Assembly: GCA_014904985.1 (NCBI GenBank)
Contig: MU128914.1
Location: 310,001 to 374,000 of the forward strand
Length of the DNA stretch: 64,000 bases
From: Hydnum rufescens UP504
Lineage: Eukaryota; Basidiomycota; Agaricomycetes; Cantharellales; Hydnaceae
Reading direction: 5' to 3'
Each line of letters begins with the position of its first letter. Position 1 is the first letter of the stretch. Shown in pieces: positions 35,600-60,900 of this stretch. The translations under genes were made by a program, and so were the position numbers. The notes beneath the pieces are model-generated. The model saw only the letters and a list, made by a program, of their open reading frames with translations. It was not told where the DNA came from and did no database searches.

Positions 35600-37404
35600 G
35601 AATCTCAATAAAATAAAGATTCCCTATCAATTCAATGACCTGTCCCCTTCTTCAGGAGTCCTCATGGTAGAAAAATCAATGTAACATGACTTGGTGGAAC
35701 TTGATTAAATTGAGGTTTACACACCCCAAGGTCTTCAAAGCACTGGAAGCCGGAAGGCTTTGGAGCCTCTGAAGCACAATCAATCTGCTGATCCTGACAG
35801 AAGCTGGCGTTGAGTATTCAATTCTTGACAGGGACAGATTGGGAACACCGGCTGTCACGAAGATTGATCGAAGTCGAGCCGGTGTTGAATCTGTCGCTGT
35901 CAAAAATTGAATAGATCTCAGATAGATTGCATATAATTGTGTTAATTGAGTTGCATCCATATGTAAATCTGAATTTAATCAAGCCACATTCCCTGAAAGA
36001 TTCATTATAGTAAAGATTTTTCGACCATAAGGCCTCCTAGGACAGGTCGCAATGCCAACAGATTCGACCCCCTGGTCTTCGGGCCTCCAAGACCCCGAGG
36101 CACCTCGATATCCAACGAGCCCCAAATTACTGTAGGGGTTCTGGCCCGTTTGGAATCATGAGGCCAATACCCCCATCCTACTGTACCTTCTGCATTTGTC
36201 CACTCTGCATTTGCCTCGGCTGGGATCCACATGTTTTCCATAAACGAGGCCGAGAAGCTACTGAGAATATTACTTCTCAGGCAGCCACAGGGTAAGTTTG
36301 AACAGAACATGTGCCACTGAGCTGTAGATCTGTGACTATTTGAATATATTGAAATGCCAATGATGCAGATTCACGGCGGTGTACTGACTCCTCCACCGAG
36401 GAGCCTCAACATCCAGCAAGGCCCAAGTCGGTCAATACCCCCATCTTACAATAAGCCCCACCTTCTGCATTTGTCCACTTTACATTTGCCTCGGCTGGGG
36501 TCCACCTGTTTTCTTATGAACGAGGCCGAGAAGCTACTGAGAATATTACTTCTCCAGGCAGCCACAGGGTAAGTTTGAACGGAACATGTGCCACTGAGCT
36601 GTAGATCTGTGACTACTTGAATATATTGAAATGCCAATGATGCAGATTCACGGCGGTGTACTGACTCCTCCACCGAGGTGCCTCAACATCCAACAAGGCC
36701 CAATTCGTGTTCTGAGGTGCTTGGATCACTGGATCAGCCCCCCATGTTACTATAAAACCGACTTGCACTCATCCGATCTACATTCACCTCCCTCTTCCAC
36801 GAAAAATGGCGGCCCCCTACGTCATCCTCAGCAGAGTTCTCTCGGCCAACCGTGAAGAGCTTGCGGTTCAATACAATGCTGCCGGGAATTTTACCCTGGA
36901 AGTTTTCGACTGGGACAATGTTCCTAATACCCAGCGTGTAAGAGTCGATGTTACTGCTGTAGTGTATCTTACATATGCATCATTTCATTGTAGTGGGTAT
37001 TAAACCTGCCTCCTCCTGCCATCACCCCCGTGATTCCTGTTCCTGCCGCGGACCGCCAAGCTGCTCCGGGTGGCGACGGTGACGCCTTTATTCAAGGGCT
37101 TCAACTGATCGGTCCCAGCCTCTGGACAGTCGACGTTCCTGGTGCCCTTAACCTATTCCGGTATGTTTTCATTGCATTCTCAACACTTGAACAAATGAAC
37201 CAAGAGCTCCATTTCCTTAACATTCCAGCATTCAAAGGGCCGGTGGCACTGCCTGGGGTTCAGGAGCCGCGGAGCCCGGCGTGGACGTGAGCCTCACAGA
37301 TTTACTTGTTTTTGCTTTGCTGAGGATCTATTGCGCAGGTCACTCTTGCAGCCCAAGGCCCCAACACCGCGGGACAGAGATGGAATTTGGTGGGCCATTT
37401 GTAG
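35600..37404. repeat. Lectin-bearing repeat, opposite orientation, copy C
   Basis: The block shares the lectin-upstream segment with copies A/B/E but in inverted orientation, and its first 500 bp are directly repeated at 38,690-39,180. The upstream segment is itself tandemly doubled (36,180-36,420 and 36,470-36,700). Position 36,046-36,050 is an empty version of the site where the copia element inserted elsewhere in this family. Confidence 0.75.
36806..37404 (+). CDS. CCL2-like beta-trefoil lectin, copy C (second subfamily)
   Basis: This is a diverged paralogue on the plus strand. ATG at 36806 gives MAAPYVILSRVLSANREELA; intron 1 starts GTAAGAGT after CAGCGT, exon 2 contains SLWTVDVPG, intron 2 starts GTATGT near 37,162, intron 3 is GTGAGC...GCGCAG (about 37,288-37,339), and the last exon ends with GQRWNLVGHL before TAG at 37402-37404. 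Intron positions match copies A, B and E exactly, while the protein differs at many residues, so this is an older duplicate kept open. Function is inferred as for copy A. Confidence 0.7.
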
Positions 37405-43979: not shown

Positions 43980-46900
43980 TCAAGCATCACGTAGTCCAAG
44001 TCCTTTGGTGTGGAAATTCAATTTTGTCACCCTGAGGGATTTTGTAAGAATGTTGGCCATCATAGTCTCTGTAGGACAGTAGACCAAATTGAAAATTCTG
44101 TCTTTAATCATCTTGTGGATAAAATGAAAGCAGATATCGATATGTTTCGTCCAGGTGTGGTAATTATCGCCCATTGTGAGCTTTAACGCAGCTTGATTAT
44201 CGCAATATAGAGTTGTGGCTTTGAGTTGAGTATGGAAAATTTTGGCAATGAGGCCTCTTAGCCAAATGCCTTCCTTGGCAGCTTGAGTTGCAGCAACATA
44301 TTCTGCCTCGGCCGTCAAGAGTGTGATTAGCTCCTGCTTTCGGGAGCTCCAGGAGATGGTTCCTCCATCTATCAGGTAAGTGTATCCCATTATTGTGCAA
44401 CGGTGCTCCTGCGTCACTCCATCCACATCCGTGTACCTGAGTAGGTTGTGTTGTTTTAACCCATATGTCAGGCTAAGATTCTTCATTGTTGATAGGTACC
44501 GTATAACTCATTTTGCTGCCTCCCAGTGTGTGAGTCCCAGCCTGTCAAGGAACTGCGATAGCGTTGATACTGCAAAAGTAATGTCCGGCCTCATGGCCAT
44601 GGATGTGTACATAAGGCTCCCTATGGCCTCACAATAGGGGGTCCGCTTCATTTGTTCGATATCTGTGGGATTCATTGCAGAATCCTCTCAAGTGGGTGTG
44701 GCCCCAGGTTCCATTGGGGTATTAATGGGTTTCGAGTCACTGAGTGAGAACTGCGAGACAATCGAGTTGATGTATGATGTCTGTGATAATCAGATCGTCT
44801 GTAATTCATGATCTCACTCGATTTTAACCCCAAGTAACCAATGCAGTGGTCCAAGGTTGGTAATCGAGTATTTGTCGTTAATCTTCTGCTTGTATTCGTC
44901 AAGTAATGCCCTCAATGGGCCTGTAAATGTGCAATCGTCCACATGGATTGTGAGAATAAGCTCCTCCCCATTCACTTGGGTATGGAACACACCTGGATCG
45001 GTGTGGCTAGCCCTGAAACCAAGATCATTAAGGGCATGCGAGAGAGAATCATACCAGTGTCGCCCGGCCTGTTTGAGACCATACAAGGTCTTCCACAGTC
45101 GCAGAATCGTATCTTTCCCCTGGGGTTTGTACTCAGGGGGAAACTGCATATAGATTTCTTCATTTTCATCAAGTTCACCATTGAGGTAGGCACCATTAAA
45201 GTTGAAAGAATCAATGTCCCAGTCATTCCTTGCTGCAACTGCGATAATTGTTCGAAAACTTGTGAGTCGTGCGATGGGGGAATATGTTTCATAGTAGTCA
45301 ACACTGTAAATCTGTGTGAAACCATGGGCAACTAGATGTGCCTTGTACTTTAGAATGGTTCCATCAGCTTTGCATTTGATTTTGAATACAAGCTTGCAAT
45401 CGATGATATTCTTGCTGGGTGGCCTTGGTACTTCATCCCAAGTTCCAGTGTCTTTGACAGTTTTGAGTTTGATATTGATAGCCTTTTTCCATTGTGGCCA
45501 ATTGGTTCATGACTTGGCCTCATCCAATGATTTGGGATCTCTGTCTATATCTTGAATGGTTGTGAAGGCTGCATCGTTGAATTCTATATGATATATGGTG
45601 TCATTTACAAGAGAAGCTGAATTCTTGCTGATATTATCACCGCTCCCCCTGATGCCAGGGATCTGAGAGTTGGATTTGTGTGTGTATCTATGAACTGTGC
45701 TTTCACCCTGTGTGAGGCGTTGCACATATTGAGACAGTTTGGGGACATGTGTGGAGTGTCGTTCGGGTTCAGCAGGTTGGGTCTGTTTTGGCATAGGAGG
45801 GGGTTCAGCGGGGGTAGTTGGCCTAGAATTTAGGGTTTTGTCATCATCTGAGTCTTCAGGATCTGGAGAATTGTTGTTGGTCGGCAGGGGATCTGACTGC
45901 AGCCTTGAGCTCATAACTGGGGGATCGACAGAAATGTCAATTGTTGAGGTAGTGAATTTTATGTTACATTTGATGGAAATTTTGTTCCTTCCCTTCCAGT
46001 AAACCCTATGAGCATGTGGGCTATCGTTATCATAGCCCACCCAGAAGGCCTCATTCATGCATTCATTGAGTTTTGATCCAGAGTCGTTATGAACCCAGAC
46101 TTGTTGGCCCCAAATAGGGACATTCGCAAGGTTCGGCTTTTCCTTTGTAAGCTGTTCGAGTGGCATCATATGGCCTAAGACCCATGTAGAGGTACGATTT
46201 TTGAGCCAGATGGCCCAATTCACAGCCTTGCCCCAGAGATTTTTCGGCAATTGGGATTGATGTAACATAGCGTGAGTTCATTTGAGAATCTGCCAATTCA
46301 GTGATTCAGCAACTCCATTGTGCTGGGGAGTATTGTGGGTGGTTAATTGGCACTCTGTGCCCTGATCCCCTAGAAATCTCGTGAATGCATTACTCATATA
46401 TTCGCCTCCATGGTCCAATCGAAGCCATTTAATTTGGACTCCATGCTGCATCTTCACCCAAGCTGCGAAATCTTTGTAGGCATCAAGTGCCTCATCCTTC
46501 GTACATAATAGTTGAAGCTTCGTATATCTCATGGCATCATCTGTAAACATGATGTAATATGAGCGCCTGCCTAAGGAATTTAGGGGTGATGGCCCCCAAA
46601 CATCTGTATGAATTTCCTCACTGAATGAGGAGGCGAGTGGGGCTGTCTGCTCTTTCTTGATGGCCTTCTGTGTGGCCTTGGCATACTTGCAAGAATCACA
46701 AGAGAAGTCTTTGACATCGTCAATTAATTCGACACCCTCAATAATGTTGTTTTTGACAAGCATGCATATTGTGTTGACAGATATATGGGCCAGCTGCTTG
46801 TGGAGTTCTGAGAGTTTCATGGTCTCGTGTGCAATGACAGTTGCTGCATTAGCATGTTCAACTTTGTATAAACCATTGTCACCCACTGGGACATTTCCAA

Positions 46901-48665
46901 TGATGATTCCCTTGGGATTTTTAATTTTTCACAAGTTTCCATCAAAGAGAACTTTGTTGCCTGCCTTTGTAATCCGGTTTATTGAGATGACTATTAATCT
47001 GAGTTCTGGAGCATGGAGGGCATCATGCAAGATGACTGGGGTGAATTTCCTGTCATTTGGCACTTGAATCTTTAAGTTGCCGGCACCAATAGTGTGGAAT
47101 ACTCAGTTGTTAGCTGCAAGGATTGGGTGAGGGTCAATGGGATGGTAATTAATGAATTGCTCCTTATACAGAGACATGTGTCAGGTGGCCCCTGAATCGT
47201 ATATTTCGGCATAAGCAGGGGATTTTGTCCATTCGTTTGTTGTTGCTGCGATATCTGGCTGTGGCCCGATGGCCTCGATTGTTGCCCATGCCTCAACATC
47301 AGCATGTGCAGCTGCTGAGGTGCTTTCCTTAGCACCCATCCTAGAGTTCGGTGATCCATGGGGTCCCTGGCCTTCCTTTCCTCCCCCTTTCGCCCAACAG
47401 TCCACTTTGAAGTGTCCCTTTCAGTGGCAATTGAAGCACTTGACATCCTTCTTGCTCTTCCTTTGCCCATTGGCATGGAAGGCCTCGTTGTTATTTGATT
47501 TGGACTTCCCCTTCTTCAGGGTTCGCCAGTCATACTCATCTGTCATGAGGCAGATTACCAGAGTTGGCATAATAGACTTGCCACTGAGATCCGCAGCAGC
47601 CATAATCGAATTTATCGTATTATCATATGAGTTGGGGAGTGATCCCAATAGAATGTTTCCATATTCTTCATCCAGAATAGTGGTGCCCATGGCTGCCAAC
47701 TGCTCTTTAAGATTGGCCAATTTGTCGAAGTGCGCATGGACATCATCATCCGTGCTGCAGCGAGTCTTCTGTAATCGCTTTCATAAGTTGACCAAAATTA
47801 ATTTCGACCGTCCTTCATATAAAGCCCGGAGCTGATCCCAGACCTCCTTGGCCTTTAGTCCAGCCTTAATCTGGCTGAACACCATATCAGGGACCAAGCT
47901 GGCCACAAGTTGTTTAACCATGGCCTCGTCCTTCTTCCATCGAGCCTCCGGCGTAAGTCCATCGACCATACTGGCAGCGCTATTGTAATATAGTGTATTA
48001 CATAAGGGAGTTCAGACTCAAAAGTCATGTATATATGGCAGATGCCGAGATTGAATAAGAATCTTTTGCCCAGACCTCTACACCTAGCAAGAACCATGAA
48101 CCCTCTTGCCTCTTGTCTCTTGTCTTTGCTGCTTCTATCTGGATATCTTGCTGGCCCCTAGTAGCCATCAATACTAGCCCTTTCCCTGGCTCTGGACTTG
48201 TGCCTTGGGACTCTAGCAGGGAAAGCAGTAAGCAGGATCACCCTTCCTCTTACTGATCCCCTTCCTCTCCTTAGGTAGTGACTGTGCCACTTGGCCAGTC
48301 ACTACTCCTTTATGCCTTTCATCATGACTGTCTTTCCCTCGCAACCTTTTCCCCCAGACTCAGAGCAAAGCCAGTGCCTAGCTCTGTGTCTGGCTCCCCC
48401 ACCTGAAGCTAGTGCTAAGGGTGGTGTGATTATCCTTCCTTCTCCTTCCCCTACCTCTGCTCCCCACCTGTTGACTTCGCTTTGTCCAAGTACGACAACA
48501 AGTGCCCTCCTGAATCCGGGAGGCACTTCATTACAGCTATAGTCTGACATAATCGTGTCACTTGTAAGGTGCTCAAGGAGCCCTTTTGCATTGAGGGCCC
48601 ACATAATCCAGTCATGGTATGTGACCCAGTTCGTACCATCTGCCACCAATTTTGTAACCCAAATC
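43980..48665 (-). pseudogene. Copia gag-pol polyprotein, decayed
   Basis: Domain order is that of Ty1/copia. Gag: GTNWVTYHDWIMWALNAKG, then the zinc knuckle CFNC..KGHFKVDC. Protease: YDSGAT. Integrase: HKQLAHISV and CDSCKYAKA (HHCC), then HTDVWGP, LRLDHGGEY and NTPQHNGVAE. Reverse transcriptase: YGLKQAGRHWYDSL and LTIHVDDCTF (catalytic DD). RNase H: LTAEAEYVAA and LYCDNQAALK, ending at 43,980. The reading frame is interrupted about ten times, in every case checked by TGA. The first codons of gag (ATG at 54,227) are separated from the rest by the nested foldback element. It cannot make a full polyprotein. Confidence 0.92.
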
Positions 48666-49067
48666 CAACTCAGTCAGCCACAAATGTAGGTCTAGTTAGA
48701 TATTACGAGCCTTGCATTTATATAGTCTAACTAGAGGTTTTGATGCTGGGGCCCCTGGGGCCGGCTAACATGATTTGCGTGATTCAGGCAGGGGCCCCAA
48801 GGGGCCCCAGGGGCCCCTGCCTCTCACCTTAGACTGGGACTTAGAGATTCTCAGACAACAGTGGGCTACACAGGCTTATTGGGGATAATCACCATTGTTT
48901 ATTATGATGTAGCAGGCCATATGGGCTTATCGGGGATAGTTCCATTTATAATTATTTATTTATTATATATTAAACATAACCTGGGTGGGGTTTCATTCAG
49001 TGGTCCCATTATTTTAATTATTGATTTATCCCTCAAAATTAAAAAAAAATTAAAACTACTTAGTAGC

Positions 49068-51505
49068 ACCACACACCCACTAGGGCGGGTGTGTGGTACT
49101 GTCCATACAAATCAAAGAGAAAAAAAAAGTACTACTTAGTAGCACCACACACCCACTTGGGCGGGTGTGTGGTGCCATCCCTCAAAATTTAAAAAAAAAA
49201 AGGATTGAGTAGCACCACACACCCGCTAGGGCAAGTGTGTGGTACGGGGGGCTGGGCTTGGTGATTCACCATTGGGCGGGTCGTTGGGACGAGTTGCGGG
49301 TTGCGGGTCGCAGGTCGTCGTTTCGGGGGCTTCAATTTGGATCCTAAAATAATAGCGTACATTAGTAAAAAAAAAGTTGAAGTGACGCAAAGGAGCAGCT
49401 TGGGCCGCTCCTTTTGCGTCGCTGTACATATAAAAATCTAAAAAAAAACCTGCACACCTGCCAAAGCAGGTGTGGTACTGATTTTGCGCCCAGGTCGTGT
49501 GCTTTGTACTCGGTTTTGCGCATGGGGGGTGTCCGTTGGGGTGGGTCGTTGTTTCGGGAGCCTTGATTTGATTCCTAGAATGATAGTGTATGTTAGTAAA
49601 AAAATTTCGAAGTGACGCAAAAGGAGCAGCTTGCGCTGCTCCTTTTGCATCGCTGTACGCATAGAAATTAAAAAAAAAACCTTGTAGTACCACACACCCA
49701 CCGAAGTGGGTGTGTGGTACTCATTTGTACCACGGTCGCATGTTCGGATTTGCGTATGGGGGCTGGTCATCGTTTGGGCGAGTGGTTTGTTTGCAGGTTT
49801 CCGTTCTCGCGTGTTTTTTCGGCGGGTGTCACGGGTCTTGATTGGGGGGTTGGTTGGGTTGTAGGATCAGAGAAAACCTAGGAATAAATAATGGGTTAGT
49901 AAAAGAGAAGAAACAACAAAACAAAAGCCACACAAAAGGAGCAGCATACGCTGCTCCTTTTGTGTGATCGTACTTACCCTGAATTACCACACACCCGCTG
50001 AAGCGGGTGTGTGGTTCGTCTGGGGTCCTGTCGCATTGCGTCGTCTGTTCCCATTCCCGGGTTTCGTTTGGTGGGTCGCGTTGTCATTTCCGAGTGGGGG
50101 GTTCGTTTGGCCAGCTCGGGCAAAAACCTAGAATAATATGATAAATGATGTGTTAGTTAAAAATTAAAACAAAAAATGAACGCAAAAAGAGCAGCCCTTG
50201 CTGCTCTTTTTGCGTCGTTGGGGGGTGTACTATATCACTTACCTTTTGTAGAACCACACACCCGCTATCGCGGGTGTGTGGTTTGTGCGGTTCGGTGTCC
50301 CTTATTTGACGCGCCGCGGTTTGGGGGAGGGGGAGGTGGCTTCGCGGGCCTTCATTTGTGGTGACGATAGCCTAGAAGACTGCATTATTAGTCAAAAAAT
50401 TTAAACCAGTGCAAAAAGAGCAGCAGGTGCTGCTCTTTTTGCGCCGTTGCAGGTACCCAATGTTACTTACCTTGCATAGAACCACACACCCGCTATGGCG
50501 GGTGTGTGGTTCTATGGGTTTGGGGTCGGCTCGTGTCTTCGTTTGGCACGTCATCATTCATTGGTTTGGTTTTGGGGGCTGGTCATTGTTTCGGGGGTGA
50601 TTCGTTTCGCCGATCTTCATTTGTGGCAGCCTAGAAGAAAAGATGTATTAGTTAAATAATAATAACCGGCGCAAAAAGAGCAGCACTTGCTGCTCTTTTT
50701 GCGCTGTTGCGGGTACCCAACGTTACTTACCTTGTATAGAACCACACACCTGCCATAGCGGGTGTGTGGTTCTACGGGTTTGGGGTCGGCTCGTGTCTTC
50801 GTTTGGCGCGTCGTTTGTTGGTTTCGTTTTGGGGGCCGGTCATCATTTCGGGGGCGATTTGTTTCGCCGATCTTCATTTGTGGCAGCCTAGAATAAAAGA
50901 TGTATTAGTTAAATAATAATAACCGGCACAAAAAGAGCAGCACTTGCTGCTCTTTTTGCGCCATTGCAGGTACCCAATGTTACTTACCTTGTATAGAACC
51001 ACACACCCGCCATAGCGGGTGTGTGGTTCTATGGGTTTGGGGTCGGCTCGTGTCTTCATTTGGCACGTCGTTCGTTGGTTTCGTTTTGGGGGCTGGTCAT
51101 CGTTTTGGGGGTGATTCGTTTCGCCAATCTTCATTTGTGGCAGCCTAGAATAAAAGATGTATTAGTTAAATAATAATAACCGGCGCAAAAAGAGCAGCAC
51201 TTGCTGCTCTTTTTGTGCCGTTGGGGTGCACAAGGTAACTTACATTATATAGAACCACACACCCGCCGCAGCGGGTGTGTGGTTCCTGGGGCCTCCCATT
51301 GGGCGGTCTGTCGCCGGTTCTGGTTTGGCTCTTGCCGTTCGGGTTCTTGTAAACCCGAACAGCGACTAAATAATAAAAGCTACGTTAGTATAAGACTTCA
51401 AAATGGCGCAAAAAGAGTAGCTTTCGCTACTCTTTTTGCGCCCTTGTATCTACTGAAACAAAAACTCACCTTAGGACCACACACCTGCAGCAGCGGGTGT
51501 GTGGT
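49068..51505 (-). repeat. Left arm: array of exon-intron modules, each with two palindromes
   Basis: Type I palindromes (ACCACACACCCGC-loop-GCGGGTGTGTGGT) lie at 49,068, 49,144, 49,214, 49,453, 49,689, 49,986, 50,253, 50,481, 50,741, 50,998, 51,254 and 51,476. Type II hairpins (GCAAAAAGAGCAGC-loop-GCTGCTCTTTTTGC) lie at 49,384, 49,617, 49,929, 50,180, 50,411, 50,669, 50,926, 51,182 and 51,405. On minus, each type I palindrome is followed within about 10 nt by a splice donor (AAG|GTAAGT), then the type II hairpin, a branch sequence (AACTAATAC or TACTAAC) and an acceptor (TTCTAG). Example introns: 50,987-50,888 (100 nt), 50,730-50,631 (100 nt), 50,470-50,372 (99 nt), with exons of 157 nt between. 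Confidence 0.88.
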
Positions 51506-51544
51506 CGTGTGCCTTTCTGGGCCGTTTGTTGGGTGTGGCTGTGT

Positions 51545-52200
51545 AGTTGCGCAATTCAACGCCGGCAATTGCTGGTCGTTAAAAAGCACCGAAGTGTAGT
51601 GCCACGAGCAGAATACATATTAATAACAAGTATATAGACGTAGAATCAATACCATATAATACATATTTGTCCAAACAAGCAAAGAAGACGACGATAATGA
51701 GTCAGAGCTCAAATAAGGCACAATATGCCTAATTGCAGAGTGGATTGAGCCACTTCTATGGGTCATAATTGGCCCAAATATAGATATAATGATGGTATAT
51801 GCGAATCCCTACATGGGGGACCAGGTATATTGGACGATTCTGGCATTTTTCAATTTTTCACGCCTTCAATTCCCTAAATAGGGAATTGAAGGCGCGAAAA
51901 ATTGAAAAACGCCAGAATTGCCCAATATACCTGGTCCCCCATGTAGGGTACATATATCTCACCAATATATTTAAATTTGAGCCGATTCTGAACCATAGAG
52001 ATTGCCCAATCCACTTTGCAATCTTCATGCCTTAGTGAACTCTGACTCATTGTCATGGTCTCTTTATTTCCTTTTGACAAATATTAATTATATGGTATTT
52101 ATTTTACATTTAGTCACTTGCTACTAATTCATACTGTAGTTGTGGCGCCGGACACTTGGGCGCTTTTTGGATGCCGGCAATTGCTGGCGTTGAGTTGTGT
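51545..52200. repeat. Central inverted repeat of the foldback element
   Basis: The axis is between 51,877 and 51,878 (ccctaaataggg). The inner 60 bp per side are almost perfect (gggaccaggtatattgg outward to inward); weaker matching continues about 300 bp per side (atgagtcagag, taccatataat, gccggcaattgctgg). Both module arrays point away from this centre, so a bidirectional promoter may lie here. Confidence 0.85.
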
Positions 52201-52253
52201 TTCTTTCTCACAACCACCACCTAACAGGAAAACCACCCAAAGAAGGAAAGATG

Positions 52254-53964
52254 ACCACACACCTGCCGATGCAGGTGTGTGGTCACAAGGTGAGTTTTTT
52301 TTTATCATAGTAGATACAACAGCGCAAAAAGAGCAGCGAAAGCTGCTCTTTTTGCGCTGCTTTGAACTTGTTTACTAACACAATACCTTTCATATAGATC
52401 GTGACCTGGTCCTAGGGACCAGTTGAAAATCAGCCAAACGACGAGGGCCCAACCTGCCAGGGCGCAAACAGGACCATGCCAAGCAACAATACAAGAAGGA
52501 AGACTGCGACAACGCGACAAACACGACAAACGCGACGAGCATGACCAACGCGAGCAACGCGAGCAACGTGACTAATGTGACGAGCACGACCAACGCGAGC
52601 AACGCGACGAGCACGACCAATGTGACCACGACAGATGACAACGCGCCTGGTGAATGGCCGCACGAACCCCACACCTGCTACAGCGGGTGTGTGGTTCTCT
52701 ATAAGATGAGTCCCCCCCCCTCTAATATATCCAGCTGTGCAAAAAGAGCAGCGAAAGCTGCTCTTTTTGTGCTGGTTTTCATTTCTCACTAACATAAATA
52801 TTTTTTCTAGGTTATCCCCTGCCCTACAACCAACGAAATGAAGAGAAGAACCACCCAACAAAGAACGAGCGGAATGGAGCCCTGCCAAACGAACCCCGAC
52901 CCCCCCCAAAACGACAGCCCGTGACACGAACGCATGCCAAAACCCACACGCCAAACGAAAAGCACGCGAGTGAAGAAGGACCATCACACAAAATGACGTG
53001 GAGCCAACGAGTGGCCCCAGGAACCACACACCCGCTGCGGCGGGTGTGTGGTACTTCAAGATAAGTGTTTATTGTTTATTTTTTTTTTATTTTTGTGGCG
53101 CAAGAAGAGCAGCATAAGCTGCTCTTCTTGCGATGCTTTAATATTTAACTAACCTGTTCATTTTTCTAGATATTGAACTTGAACCCCATGACACCAAACC
53201 CACGGAGCGAAACCCGCGATGCCCAACCCGCCAAATGAAGGCCCGCGACGCCAAACCCGCCGAACGGAGGTCCGCGATGTCAAACCCGCTGAACAAAGGC
53301 CCGCCCCCATGAATGAAACCGCGAAACGACTGACGACCGACATGAACCTGCGAACTGGGCCGCACAGGAAAATAGGGAGCCACACACCCGCTGCGGTGGG
53401 TGTGTGGTACTCTAAGATAAGCTTGTTTTCATTTTTTGTGGCGCAAGAAGAGCAGCGTAAGCTGCTCTTCTTGCGATGCTTTGATGTTTAACTAACGTCC
53501 TTATTTTCTAGATCTCGAACCCTGCACGAACCCCCAACGCCAAACCCGCGACCTGAAACCCCGCGACTGAAGCCCGTGACCCGAAGCCCCGCGACCCCAA
53601 ACCCACCGAACAAAACAAAACCCCGTGAATGAAACCGCGAACGTGCGAGTACCACACCCGCTGCGGCGGGTGTGTGGTACTCTCAAGGTAAGTCTTTCTT
53701 TCTGGAGCTACAATCGCGCAAGAAGAGCAGCCATGGGCTGCTCTTCTTGCTCTTCACTACATTAAAGTAACACATCTTTTATTTTAGGTGACAAAATAGC
53801 CTCCCCCCCGAATAAGCCCCATGAGATGTGCGCACTGGGCCCCACGCAAATGGGCAAACGGGCCCATATGAACACGTGAGCTAGGCCCGGGGTGATCATT
53901 TACGGTATGAATTTTCATTTTGCTACAAGTGCGCAAGAAGAGCAGCCTGTGGCTGCTCTTCTTG
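52254..53964 (+). repeat. Right arm: inverted array of the same modules
   Basis: Type I palindromes at 52,254, 52,666, 53,023, 53,380 and 53,651; type II hairpins at 52,321, 52,739, 53,099, 53,442, 53,718 and 53,934. Signals now read on plus. Intron R1 runs 52,290-52,398 or so with donor AAG|GTGAGT, branch TTTACTAAC and acceptor CATATAG. Modules 2 to 4 have AT in place of the donor GT (AAG|ATGAGT, AAG|ATAAGT, AAG|ATAAGC); module 5 has GTAAGT. The outer three hairpins use an AAGAAGAGC stem with matching GCTCTTCTT. Confidence 0.87.
52498..52640 (+). repeat. Short tandem repeat inside the right arm
   Basis: Degenerate units such as acgcgacgagcacgacca and acgcgagca repeat through this exon-like segment. 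The long open frames across it (Val/Leu/Ala-rich on minus, Asn/Thr/Ser-rich on plus) are products of the repeat, not a recognised protein. Confidence 0.7.
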
Positions 53965-54210
53965 GGTGCATGGGTCCCCACTGGGTGAGCCTAGTGTATA
54001 TAATAATAATCAATAAATAAATAATAAATAAATAAATAATCCTAATGGCTAGGGGCCCCAGGGGCCCCTGGGCTGCTTGACCAGCCCCCCCGACTGAATT
54101 GCAGGGGCCCCTGGGGGCCCCCAGGTCTGATATCTAGTTAGAGCATATAAATGCAACCCTTGAAATATCTAGTTAGATACCGATAATTGGCTGACCAGGC
54201 TGCCCAAATC

Positions 54211-57409: not shown

Positions 57410-57830
57410 AACTATGACCATGATGCGAGAATGATGATGACGCGAGGAATGATGACGATGACGATGCAGAAACGACGACAACGATGCGGAAATGACGACA
57501 ACGGTGCAGAAACAACGATGATGCGGAAACGACAACGATGCGGAAACGACAGCGATGCGGAAACGACAACGATGCGGGAATGACAACGACAATGTGGGAG
57601 TGACAATGATAACACAGAAATGTCAATGATGACGCGGAAACAACAACAACAATGCAGAAATGACGACGACAACACGGAAACGACAACGACGACACGGAAA
57701 CGATGACGACGACACGGAAACGACAATGACGACACGGAAATGACAACGACGATGCAGGAATGATGATGACGATGCGAGAATGAGAACAACAACAATGAGG
57801 TGGATGATGAGGATGGAGGAGGATGATGAC
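57410..57830. repeat. Low-complexity minisatellite (ACGACAACGATGCGGAA-like units)
   Basis: Degenerate units of roughly 15-21 nt rich in GAC, AAC and GATG, with gacacggaaacgac and gatgcggaaacgac as the commonest cores. Long open frames on minus through it (Ser/His/Val/Phe-rich) are a by-product of the repeat. Confidence 0.85.
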
Positions 57831-57936
57831 ACGGCTGGAAATGTAGGGGGAAAGGAGGGTGACGGCAAGGCTAGAAATGCAGGGGATATCAGCTGCAAAG
57901 AAGCGGAACCTGGCTGGTTTATGTGAAGATTGACCG

Positions 57937-60900
57937 TCAAGGAGGAAAGTTTGAGCCTGTAGATACTCTCCAGATGTCTGGGCCAGTATGCGATGCTGCC
58001 GAAAAATCCTGGGAGTTGAAGTTCTGCTGCGAGGGGCTGTAGCCCTGCTGCAAGAGACCGTGGCTCTGCTGCGAGGGACCATAGCTCTGCTGCGAGGGAC
58101 CGTAGCTCTGCTGTGAGGGACCGTAGCTGCGCTGGGCATCGAAGGATGACGATCCCAATGAATCGGGCTGCAACGTGCCTTGGTATGCTGACATAAGATC
58201 TCCATAGCCATACAGCTGACGGAGCTGCGGAGCAGACACAGATCTTGATGACGACGGGTTTTGGGGTTGATAAGTAGGAGGGAAGTTGTTCATGGGAGCA
58301 AGGGACTGAATTGAATACCATTGAAGGATTGGGTTCCGCCGCCAGCATGCACTTGCAAGGCACCTGGCCCAAAAAGATCGAGTCCACCACCATGGCCAGT
58401 TGATCATGCGAAAGATGTGCCAATACTGCTTTCAGCAGTAATGAAGGGATTGAAGGCAGATCCTGAGGGGGCACTGATGTTGCCATTAACGTCCAGAGGA
58501 ATCGACATGTGACTTGAGGCAGGGGCATCAGTGTGAGTCACAAGGGGCGACTCGACAGGTGCAGGACTGGCTTCGATGCCGCCAGTTGTGAGGAGAGACT
58601 CAGGAACATTAATATTAGAAGCAGCTGTGGCATTGGGTTCTGCGTCGTCAGTGATGACGGGAGAGTCAACGGACACAGCACTATGGGCTGGTATGGTAGT
58701 GGCGGCTGCCCGTGCCGCCCTACCATGCTTCTTGCCCCTACCCTCAGGCTTGCCAGGAATTGGGCGTTTACCCCTCCTTGCGACAGCAACTGCAGGGTCT
58801 CGCATATCCTCGGCATCCTCCAGGTATCGCTGCGACGAACTGACCCGCATCAGGATCCCCCCGTTACGATCAGTCATAATCGCGACAGCGGCCTGGGCCT
58901 CAAGAGACATCTTCGCATCACCTGTTTCACAAAGTGGTGTCGGATTACGTTTGAAGCACTAGAGAACTGTCGTACGCACCCGTGCTCCACCGACGAACAC
59001 CAATGACAATATTTGAAGGAGCCTTGTGGAATTCGGAACAGAGCAGACGCCAGCTGACAACTGAATTCGAGGCATTGCGATCCAGATTTGCGAAACCTGG
59101 CATGACTCCCCAATTTATAATTTCAAGCTGGTGCCCATAGAGAAGGTCGGGAAGACTTTGCCAAGGAAACCGTTCCTCAAGACTCACGAACGGCTCTATG
59201 CAAACTATAATATTAGAACTTGTACTGTAGAGCTTGAATATAAAAACGTACTAAATAATGCTCTTAAGTGCTTGCCGCTTGCTGCCTTGGCCTTTGAGAT
59301 ATCGGCAAGCTCGCACGCCATTCGCTTGCCTGGGCAACTTCAGGATTTAGCTCCACTTGTTGAAGCCTAATGGCATCACTATTGACAAAGATATAAAACT
59401 GCCAGATGATATTACCGAGAGGGTTGTTGATGCTGGTCCAAAACCGTCGTGCTGCATCGGATCCATAGAAAACGCCATTTCGTGCCGCAGATTTATCATC
59501 ATGCGCTCGCCCGCTTACCATGAGGATGATGGTGTGTGCACCAGCCATCGTCAAGGTTTGTGCCTGAATAGAAGATCAGTACAAGTAACACTCATTCTAT
59601 CAATCTACTCACTCGCGCAACCATTCCATCCTGTTCCGCAGCCATCAAACGACTTAACCCTGCTCCTTCCGATGCTCGCTTGAGGTCATCAATCTCAACC
59701 GTGACCATCTCGGCTCGCAGGCGGCACAACTGCTCATCCAGGTCGCCAATTGTTTCGTGCTTGGTCTTGAATGCATACCAGGCAGGCGTGACGACCTCCT
59801 TCATGTAATCGCCCTGTTCGCCTTGTAAATGCATATTAGGACAGTGAAATGAGTTCATAAACCAATAAGAACTTACGATGCCCAACTTCACCCCGAGGAG
59901 GATTTGGAGCCTCTTTCATGTACGACCGCGACCAGCCATTGAAAGCGTTCTTTTCACGTTGACCCTTCTCCTTGTCTACCTTGGCATGATTAACGAGCCT
60001 GAGCTCAGCGGCCTTAAGAAGTTTCAGCCGGGGATACTGGCTCTCGTCCGCTAGCGCGCCGAGATCCTCAAGAAACTGGTCCCTGAGCCACTGAGCCTTC
60101 AGTATGACAGCTTCAGGGACTGGTCCATCCAGGAAGGGAAGGGAAGACCGAATGGAAGGATTGTTGGGCCAGAAATCAGGATCATGATAACGGTCATCAT
60201 CGTGAAGTGCCACGTTGACAACATGAGTGGTAGTGTTCAAGACGGGCCCACATTTTTTCGAATTAGCACTGGACGGCAGCCCTTCAACATCGCGAATGGA
60301 GGCCCTGGACAAGGGCAACCGATTTCGCCTCAATCCGCCACTCGAGCCCAATGTGTCGGAGCCCAATGTGTCGGGAATGCTGAGGATCATTTCCTCGCTA
60401 TCTTCTTCGGATAGAGTGAGAGGGTAAGACGATGGGTAAGGTGTGGAATTATCGCGGGCTGCAGCGGATTTCAGCGGTGACAGAGTGCCGAATTGGGGAC
60501 TTTGAGCCGATATATCAGGGACTGGAGATTCGTCGCTATCGAGAGAATGAGAGTTGATGCGATTCCTTTTGGTTTGAGGTGGTGCATCGTCCAGTGAACG
60601 TGTCTTTCAATTGCAAGAACATCAGCACAAATCCGAAGAGAATAACCGGACGATCACTCACATCTGCACTGGAATAACCTGGTTTACCCTTCTGGGGCCG
60701 CTGGGGAGAAGAAATTGAAGGCAGAATCGTGCGGAGTGGCACAGAATCAGGGGAGCCACCTCCATCTTCATCGTCACTGTCACCACCCCCCTCTTCATCG
60801 TCTCCCTCTTCACTGTCGCCGCCATCCTCATCTTCGTTCGTCCTGATTGTGGCCGAAGGCACTGCAAGACTCGGTTTGGTATTCTTGTTCGGCACGGAAA

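Follow-up and report, generated by a model that had tools for sequence, protein, structure and literature searches.

The locus described here raises the question of how a transposon that looks noncoding comes to be built from repeated units resembling exons and introns. The window, by which we mean the whole stretch of 64,000 nucleotides that was analysed, comes from the basidiomycete Hydnum rufescens UP504 and covers positions 310,001–374,000 of contig MU128914.1 (G000:C6); within it a foldback transposon of about 5.5 kb spans 48,666–54,202, flanked on both sides by the 8-bp sequence CCCAAATC. Window positions are used unless a contig or locus is named, and genome searches were made over the 63.2-Mb assembly (539 contigs). 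We consider it about two-thirds probable that this is a non-autonomous foldback element of the KDZ kind whose arms are divergent, spliceable, noncoding transcription units.

As in other foldback elements, the arms are repetitive internally, and long inverted arms meet at an axis. The arms align to one another at 73% over 1.22 kb, and the axis is the centre of an inverted repeat (51,807–51,876 and 51,879–51,948) that is 94% complementary with a 2-nt spacer. These matches and the flanking duplication bear out the element as an earlier note on this stretch had drawn it, at 48,666–54,202 with arms of 3.2 and 2.3 kb about an axis at 51,877/51,878; the CCCAAATC duplication is an addition to that account. 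The terminal inverted repeats (48,673–48,735 and 54,133–54,195) are 75% complementary over 63 nt, and CARCYYRGTCAGCCA is present exactly at 48,666 on the plus strand and at 54,202 on the minus strand, the element ends being of the CARSYYRGTCAGCCA type. By itself, a loose test for CARCYYRGTCAGCCA gives three matches where 1.7 are expected, and the element ends therefore rest on the duplication and on the genome copies described below. The layout is as follows, with the basis of each assignment in brackets.

48,658–48,665, unstranded: target site duplication, left copy, CCCAAATC (sequence)
48,666–48,735, plus strand: left terminal inverted repeat, starting CAACTCAGTCAGCCA (inverted-repeat search, end motif)
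48,666–51,877, minus strand: left arm, 3.2 kb, with intron-like signals, read outward (inverted repeats, module scan)
48,944–48,975, minus strand: AATAAA-containing stretch beyond the last left-arm module, putatively polyadenylation-like (sequence)
51,807–51,948, unstranded: central palindrome at the axis 51,877/51,878, candidate divergent promoter (inverted repeat)
51,878–54,202, plus strand: right arm, 2.3 kb, with intron-like signals and three AT donors, read outward (inverted repeats, module scan)
54,009–54,041, plus strand: AATAAA-rich stretch beyond the last right-arm module, putatively polyadenylation-like (sequence)
54,133–54,202, minus strand: right terminal inverted repeat, starting CAGCCTGGTCAGCCA; together with the bases next to it, homologous over 93 bp to a KDZ transposon's 3′ end (inverted-repeat search, end motif, KDZ end comparison)
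54,203–54,210, unstranded: target site duplication, right copy, CCCAAATC (sequence)

Mismatch-tolerant pattern scans of the window show that the arms carry two kinds of palindrome, in the numbers that had been reported beforehand. There are 17 matches to type I at up to two mismatches, every one within 49,072–53,674 (0.01 expected), and 13 to type II at up to three mismatches (0.02 expected), to which two further type II palindromes with a 5-nt loop, at 53,723 and 53,938, are added to give 15. A module script finds 12 modules with a donor, a type II hairpin, a branch sequence and an acceptor, and their predicted introns measure 91–115 nt. Eight of these have a GTRAGT donor, three in the right arm have an AT donor (ATGAGT, ATAAGT and ATAAGC), and one in the left arm, L8, has GTTTTT. 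A 13th module, around the hairpin at 49,391, lies outside the script's pattern and was read by eye (donor GTTTTT, branch TACTAAT, acceptor TAG); around the hairpins at 53,723 and 53,938 the script finds no complete set of splice-like signals. The order of donor, type II hairpin, branch and acceptor that had been proposed is thus found in 12 modules and in the one read by eye, and the donor and acceptor pair 50,987/50,888 named at that time is recovered by the script. The point that calls for correction is the donor, which is AT in three modules and GTTTTT in two. Introns are numbered outward from the axis.

49,072–53,674, unstranded: 17 type I palindromes, CACACCYGC-N4-GCRGGTGTG and near forms, ending the exon just 5′ of the donor in complete modules
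49,391–53,960, unstranded: 15 type II palindromes, AAGAGCAGC-loop-GCTGCTCTT and near forms, in complete modules placed after the donor and before the branch point
51,366–51,469, minus strand: predicted intron L1, donor GTGAGT, type II hairpin, branch TACTAAC, acceptor TAG (module script)
51,145–51,243, minus strand: predicted intron L2, donor GTAAGT (module script)
50,888–50,987, minus strand: predicted intron L3, donor GTAAGT (module script)
50,631–50,730, minus strand: predicted intron L4, donor GTAAGT (module script)
50,380–50,470, minus strand: predicted intron L5, donor GTAAGT, acceptor uncertain, the script having taken the first YAG (CAG) with a TAG 8 nt further on (module script, sequence)
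50,128–50,242, minus strand: predicted intron L6, donor GTAAGT (module script)
49,878–49,977, minus strand: predicted intron L7, donor GTAAGT (module script)
49,575–49,680, minus strand: predicted intron L8, weak donor GTTTTT (module script)
49,345–49,450, minus strand: intron-like module L9, at the 49,391 hairpin, weak donor GTTTTT, branch TACTAAT, acceptor TAG (by eye, borders within a few nt)
52,290–52,397, plus strand: predicted intron R1, donor GTGAGT (module script)
52,706–52,810, plus strand: intron-like module R2, non-GT donor ATGAGT (module script)
53,061–53,169, plus strand: intron-like module R3, non-GT donor ATAAGT (module script)
53,417–53,511, plus strand: intron-like module R4, non-GT donor ATAAGC (module script)

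The division into exons and introns can also be seen in base composition. The exons are A/C-rich and about 120–310 nt long, and the introns are about 90–115 nt. Read on the outward strand of both arms, the inner exons contain 9–15% T and the introns 35–39%; the first and last exons contain 21–30% T, and there the contrast is less clear.

A search of the genome for the module reveals a family of many copies. Matches to the strict patterns number 1,799 for type I and 3,766 for type II, the backward control giving none of either, and among the matches listed (C1–C5 for type I, C1–C2 for type II) the two lie mostly at the same loci. A 257-nt stretch of the left arm has at least 214 matched pieces, and the left end, right end and centre have at least 40 matches each (the best 40 of 361, 292 and 590 candidates, respectively). 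In viral contigs the type II pattern occurs in 20 stretches, at one place each, which we take as chance, and the type I pattern has no match in that set, which may omit records near the present genome.

Twenty stretches were fetched for comparison, together with one locus in two pieces (L041, L042), some of them cut by contig ends or runs of N. L015, L016 and L018 align along the full length of the window element, most others along part of it. In 22 other stretches the best self-inverted match has 62–90% identity over 0.86–3.2 kb, which indicates that many copies are true foldbacks. The central 840 bp are especially widely shared: in a comparison made without L026 and L029, 18 of the 20 other axis-centred stretches align over about 800 bp or more at 74–98%, L024 aligns over 303 bp at 73%, and L022 does not align. 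Both a left and a right end were read in ten copies, and in six of them (the window element, L015, L023, L027, L034 and L042) all eight flanking bases match in the regular arrangement; the count is seven of eight in L018 and three of eight in L016. L021 (3246/3686) and L028 (1025/6761) also have eight matching bases, but both ends lie on one strand, in L028 across a run of N, and these copies are therefore rearranged by inversion or misassembled.

Two more ends were seen in the same stretches. At L028:9041 there is a further right end whose flank resembles part of a type I palindrome, perhaps one element inserted into another. At L015:9507 another end has the same 15-nt motif and a different palindromic subterminal stretch, and it perhaps belongs to a further family.

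The splice-like signals recur in these copies. A strict test, requiring GTRAGY at most 75 nt before the hairpin and RCTAAY then YAG within 75 nt after it, was applied to 228 type II hairpins from the window element and 22 loci (23 stretches). Donor, branch and acceptor surround 112 of these hairpins (plus strand 54, minus strand 58), in no case on both strands. Reversed flanks gave 0 of 228, and flanks redrawn from their own base-to-base steps gave 0.43% (50 draws each); a looser listing gives 187 cases with branch and acceptor. Relative to the axis, 83 of the 112 hairpins point outward and none inward; the remaining 29 were not placed, being over 2.6 kb away from it or in a stretch where no axis was located. 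A non-autonomous foldback transposon present in many copies, with arms oriented outward from its centre, is what the earlier note had foreseen, and the family, ends, duplications and orientation uphold it. The same note had held that the signals would be coincidental if no module gave spliced reads and genome copies also lacked donor, branch and acceptor; the second half of this condition did not come true, as about half of the hairpins keep the signals under the strict test. In the looser listing the ATGAGT donor of R2 recurs in L031–L034 and the ATAAGT of R3 in L026 and L032. These AT donors, being shared with relatives, are therefore old states and not new damage, and at least in the right arm the GT donor is not maintained throughout.

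Which transposase moves the family is suggested by the ends. The motif CARSYYRGTCAGCCA occurs exactly 670 times in the genome, as against 2 in the control, and KDZ domains are abundant (at least 154 matches, the best 150 of 584 candidates having been scored). Ends and domains were compared on contigs C1–C31, where the motif list is complete, an end being counted within 3.5 kb 3′ of a domain. An inward-facing end lies near 9 of the 26 KDZ domains listed there and an outward-facing one near 1. The KDZ 3′ end at C2:730,160 (L044) has 76% identity to the right end of the foldback element across 93 bp (E 6e-15) and 69% to its left end across 84 bp, and the frames that adjoin this KDZ end contain KDZ (E 9e-56) and CxC1 (E 3e-8) domains. 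Used as a genome query, this end has 45 matches, and comparison of these with the list of KDZ domains gives nine correctly oriented pairs of end and domain, on C2, C493 (two), C200, C400, C90, C249, C452 and C5. Beyond the 15-nt motif, the ends of KDZ_C2 and KDZ_C13 beat 1,000 of 1,000 shuffles in comparison with the foldback ends. At the 3′ end the link to KDZ elements is strong. The autonomous partner with shared ends that had been sought thus has a candidate, a KDZ element with a homologous 3′ end; a KDZ element with both ends was not found, the search for the second end having covered 13.8 kb at C2.

Two other KDZ features were observed. At L044:5264–6536, 5′ of the KDZ frames, there is a tandem array with a period of 117 (9.7 copies) or 243, whose unit holds the imperfect palindrome GGGTAGTG...CTGCAG...CCACTATCC. 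A KDZ domain also lies at G000:C6:375,982–376,746, about 2 kb beyond the right end of the window, with no exact end motif listed nearby.

The foldback element itself does not encode a KDZ transposase. Stop-free stretches on the outward strands reach at most 164 codons in the left arm (157 after predicted splicing) and 121 in the right arm (130 after splicing), and 9 of 10 internal exons have lengths that are not a multiple of three. The inward strand of the right arm contains a stop-to-stop frame of 212 codons; Pfam gives no match to this frame at E 1, and we take it to be a by-product of the T-poor exons. Given the short open stretches, the out-of-frame exons and the lack of a Pfam match, a coding role was rejected, and the arms look noncoding. 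A known RNA family was rejected as well: the four matches up to E 0.1, to three microRNA families (best E 3e-5) and one thermometer, all fall far under their gathering scores. ARAGORN, in its bacterial setting, finds no tRNA.

Copies without introns were also sought. A 200-nt exon-exon query has 167 matches in the genome, and most of those listed start or stop near the junction at 100, as is expected if genomic copies hold an intron there. Among the matches listed, C121:57,499–57,630 (L048:120–180) runs through the junction at 75%; this module border lacks the intron together with 3 nt of the exon end, and a short-homology deletion would explain the loss as well as a spliced template, of which it is no proof. 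A search with 138 predicted introns found 45 places at true junctions and 0, 1, 6, 6, 45 and 62 at six shifted ones, and is too noisy to be used.

How such an element would work can be outlined from these features. A KDZ transposase encoded elsewhere would act in trans at the shared ends and leave the 8-bp duplication. Transcription by RNA polymerase II would begin at a putative divergent promoter in the conserved centre and proceed outward in both directions. Each transcript would run through the repeated modules, consisting of an exon that ends in hairpin I and a presumably spliced intron with hairpin II, and would have its 3′ end at the AATAAA-containing stretches near the element ends. A foldback that encodes no protein runs the risk of being silenced through double-stranded RNA, and well-spliced divergent arms would lower this risk: efficient splicing would keep the inverted-repeat RNA from resembling an aberrant or double-stranded transcript, and it would keep the chromatin of the element open enough for the transposase. 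This benefit of splicing is the least certain part of the mechanism. Another use had been proposed for it in the earlier note, namely a lower cost of insertion in genes. The anatomy does not support that idea: the predicted sites would take out only introns of about 100 nt and leave the bulk of the element in the RNA, about 1.9 kb for the right arm or 2.4 kb for the left, and splicing would affect only whichever arm lies in the sense of the gene. More tentatively, the whole body might serve to produce two divergent noncoding RNAs with many introns, every exon and every intron carrying one fixed hairpin, and the RNAs or their spliced lariats might act in trans. They might, for example, protect the family from RNA-based silencing, with no stalled spliceosomes and no long double-stranded RNA, or else titrate a protein that binds RNA or DNA and takes part in silencing or transposition. 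We regard such a role as conceivable and rather doubtful.

The hairpins themselves provide evidence on what is being conserved. Among 38 non-redundant modules of 135 oriented ones, stems are more uniform than flanks (1.67 as against 0.41 bits), a difference partly forced by the search pattern, which fixes the inner stem positions. Paired changes are present, A-T to G-C at one pair in 31 of 157 distinct type II stems and at another in 18. On the sense strand, G.U and A.C mismatches number 82 and 50 in the type I stems (134 distinct hairpins) and 61 and 58 in the 157 type II stems; when CpG pairs are left out the counts are 32 to 9 and 19 to 11, in copies that are related and with inner pairs again fixed by the pattern. 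Most of these mismatches fall on CpG pairs and could stem from the decay of methylated CpG. The sums outside CpG lean towards RNA, although with copies that are related they do not decide between constraint on the RNA and constraint on the DNA. The predicted fold of two exons and one intron has −140 kcal/mol against a mean of −90 for 100 shuffles, and the type I palindromes of adjacent modules are able to pair with one another. The low folding energy would be a natural outcome of repeated palindromes and is no proof of function.

Several of these observations weigh against divergent, spliceable arms mobilised by KDZ. The full strict signals are missing at 116 of the 228 type II hairpins. Three right-arm donors are AT, two of them (R2 and R3) shared with diverged relatives, and part of the right arm may therefore not splice. 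Type II stems have no overall excess of G.U over A.C, which leaves selection for an RNA hairpin without demonstration. On the side of the mobiliser, 17 of the 26 KDZ domains have no exact inward motif, for which other subfamilies, decay or lost ends are offered as explanations; the ends of KDZ_C26 and KDZ_C19, two of the four read, share only the first 15 nt with the foldback ends; and the 13.8 kb read at C2 did not reveal the second end of the KDZ element there. The irregular arrangement of two of the 8-bp duplications (L021 and L028) lowers confidence slightly. Escape from silencing through splicing is, finally, a use that we infer.

The alternative that best survives is that the palindromes act as DNA, as arrays of sites for the KDZ transposase or a host factor, the splice signals being unused relics of a tandemly duplicated exon-intron unit. 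It would account for stems that are more conserved than their flanks (partly forced, as noted) and for the absence of an overall G.U bias in type II, and it has parallels in the palindromic 117-bp array that one KDZ element carries before its transposase frames and in Galileo, whose foldback arms, according to excerpts of its description, hold repeated transposase sites (PMC3688188). Unused relics should, however, lose their signals, whereas donor, branch and acceptor remain ordered and on one strand at 112 of the 228 hairpins from diverged copies; the composition contrast between exon and intron likewise persists, and outside CpG G.U exceeds A.C, which leans towards RNA, although in related copies. 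We judge this explanation unlikely. Less likely still, by a wide distance, is that the stems owe their perfection not to selection but to quasi-palindrome correction or template switching, tandem duplication and drift supplying the rest, with no RNA function. The varying loops, the thousands of stems that fit strict patterns (which themselves demand stems) and the near-equal type II mismatches, mostly at CpG pairs, are what it would give, but it leaves unexplained both the splice-like signals around the hairpins and the orientation of 83 outward to none inward. That hAT and not KDZ elements mobilise the family can practically be dismissed: hAT elements usually make 8-bp duplications (PMC12730594, consulted in excerpt) such as those seen here, and the genome has 90 matches to the hAT dimerisation domain, but none of the 20 hAT domains listed on C1–C31 lies behind an inward end (1 has an outward one) as against the 9 of 26 for KDZ, with whose elements the foldback ends are directly homologous, and hAT was rejected as the mobiliser.

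Introns in transposons are usually regarded as parts of transposon genes, and an introner is itself the intron. Mobile DNA bearing splice signals is known in introners, some families of which have inverted repeats and duplications (PMC9860276; PMC4457414, both in excerpt); here, by contrast, many intron-like units lie inside one transposon, and the ends of the window element do not coincide with splice sites, both lying outside all predicted introns. Long, internally repetitive inverted arms are shared with Galileo, FB, Tetris and Tm1, the excerpted descriptions of which mention no intron signals in the arms, and Galileo is a relative of the P element (PMC3688188), not of the KDZ kind. Like miniature inverted-repeat transposable elements it is noncoding, is present in many copies and has ends in common with a transposase-bearing element; those elements are short as excerpts describe them, and this one has 5.5 kb and a large ordered internal structure.

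Among fungal KDZ transposons (Kyakuja, Dileera, Zisupton and KDZ1–3), available excerpts give 8-bp duplications, 241-bp inverted repeats and a KDZ and CxC1 transposase for Cryptococcus KDZ1, and inverted repeats of 139 and 169 bp with 4–8 bp duplications for KDZ2 and KDZ3 (PMC12810828); Zisupton makes 8-bp duplications and Kyakuja, which lacks inverted repeats, 7-bp ones (PMC12730594). The 8-bp duplication found here has the length seen in KDZ1 and Zisupton, and the ends are shared with KDZ elements of this genome. What differs is the lack of a transposase and a body that is a foldback of intron-like modules, and the excerpts describe no such derivative. The earlier note knew of no family combining foldback arms with splice sites, and in the open-licence PMC literature, as far as its excerpts go, no foldback family with intron modules was found either. 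The body plan of this non-autonomous KDZ-type foldback family is thus one that we did not find described, the kind of transposon being itself known.

In this family splice-like signals recur, ordered and on one strand, in a noncoding, many-copy inverted-repeat transposon, and selection may accordingly act on splicing or its by-products and not on a protein. Production of small interfering RNA can be set off in Cryptococcus when spliceosomes stall (Dumesic et al. 2013, as cited in an excerpt of PMC6643885). A family with strong repeated introns would lend itself naturally to asking whether good splicing evolves in transposons as an escape from a spliceosome-linked defence, and with its thousands of hairpins of two designs, some of them beside altered donors, the present family amounts to a natural experiment.

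The window has other repeats and transposon-like frames. It also encodes a CDC4-like WD40 protein whose nearest match among named proteins is from Cantharellus anzutake (77% identity over 82% of the query), Tulasnella proteins at 55–56% following in score, which points to a host probably in Cantharellales and close to Cantharellus. At 44,814–46,928 on the minus strand lie three adjoining frames that we take to resemble a broken Copia-type pol. A 277-bp unit is tandemly duplicated at 36,185–36,707 with 94% matches. Minisatellites with units of 14–36 nt and of 21 nt occupy 57,420–57,885 and 58,023–58,128, respectively, and overlap long minus-strand frames.

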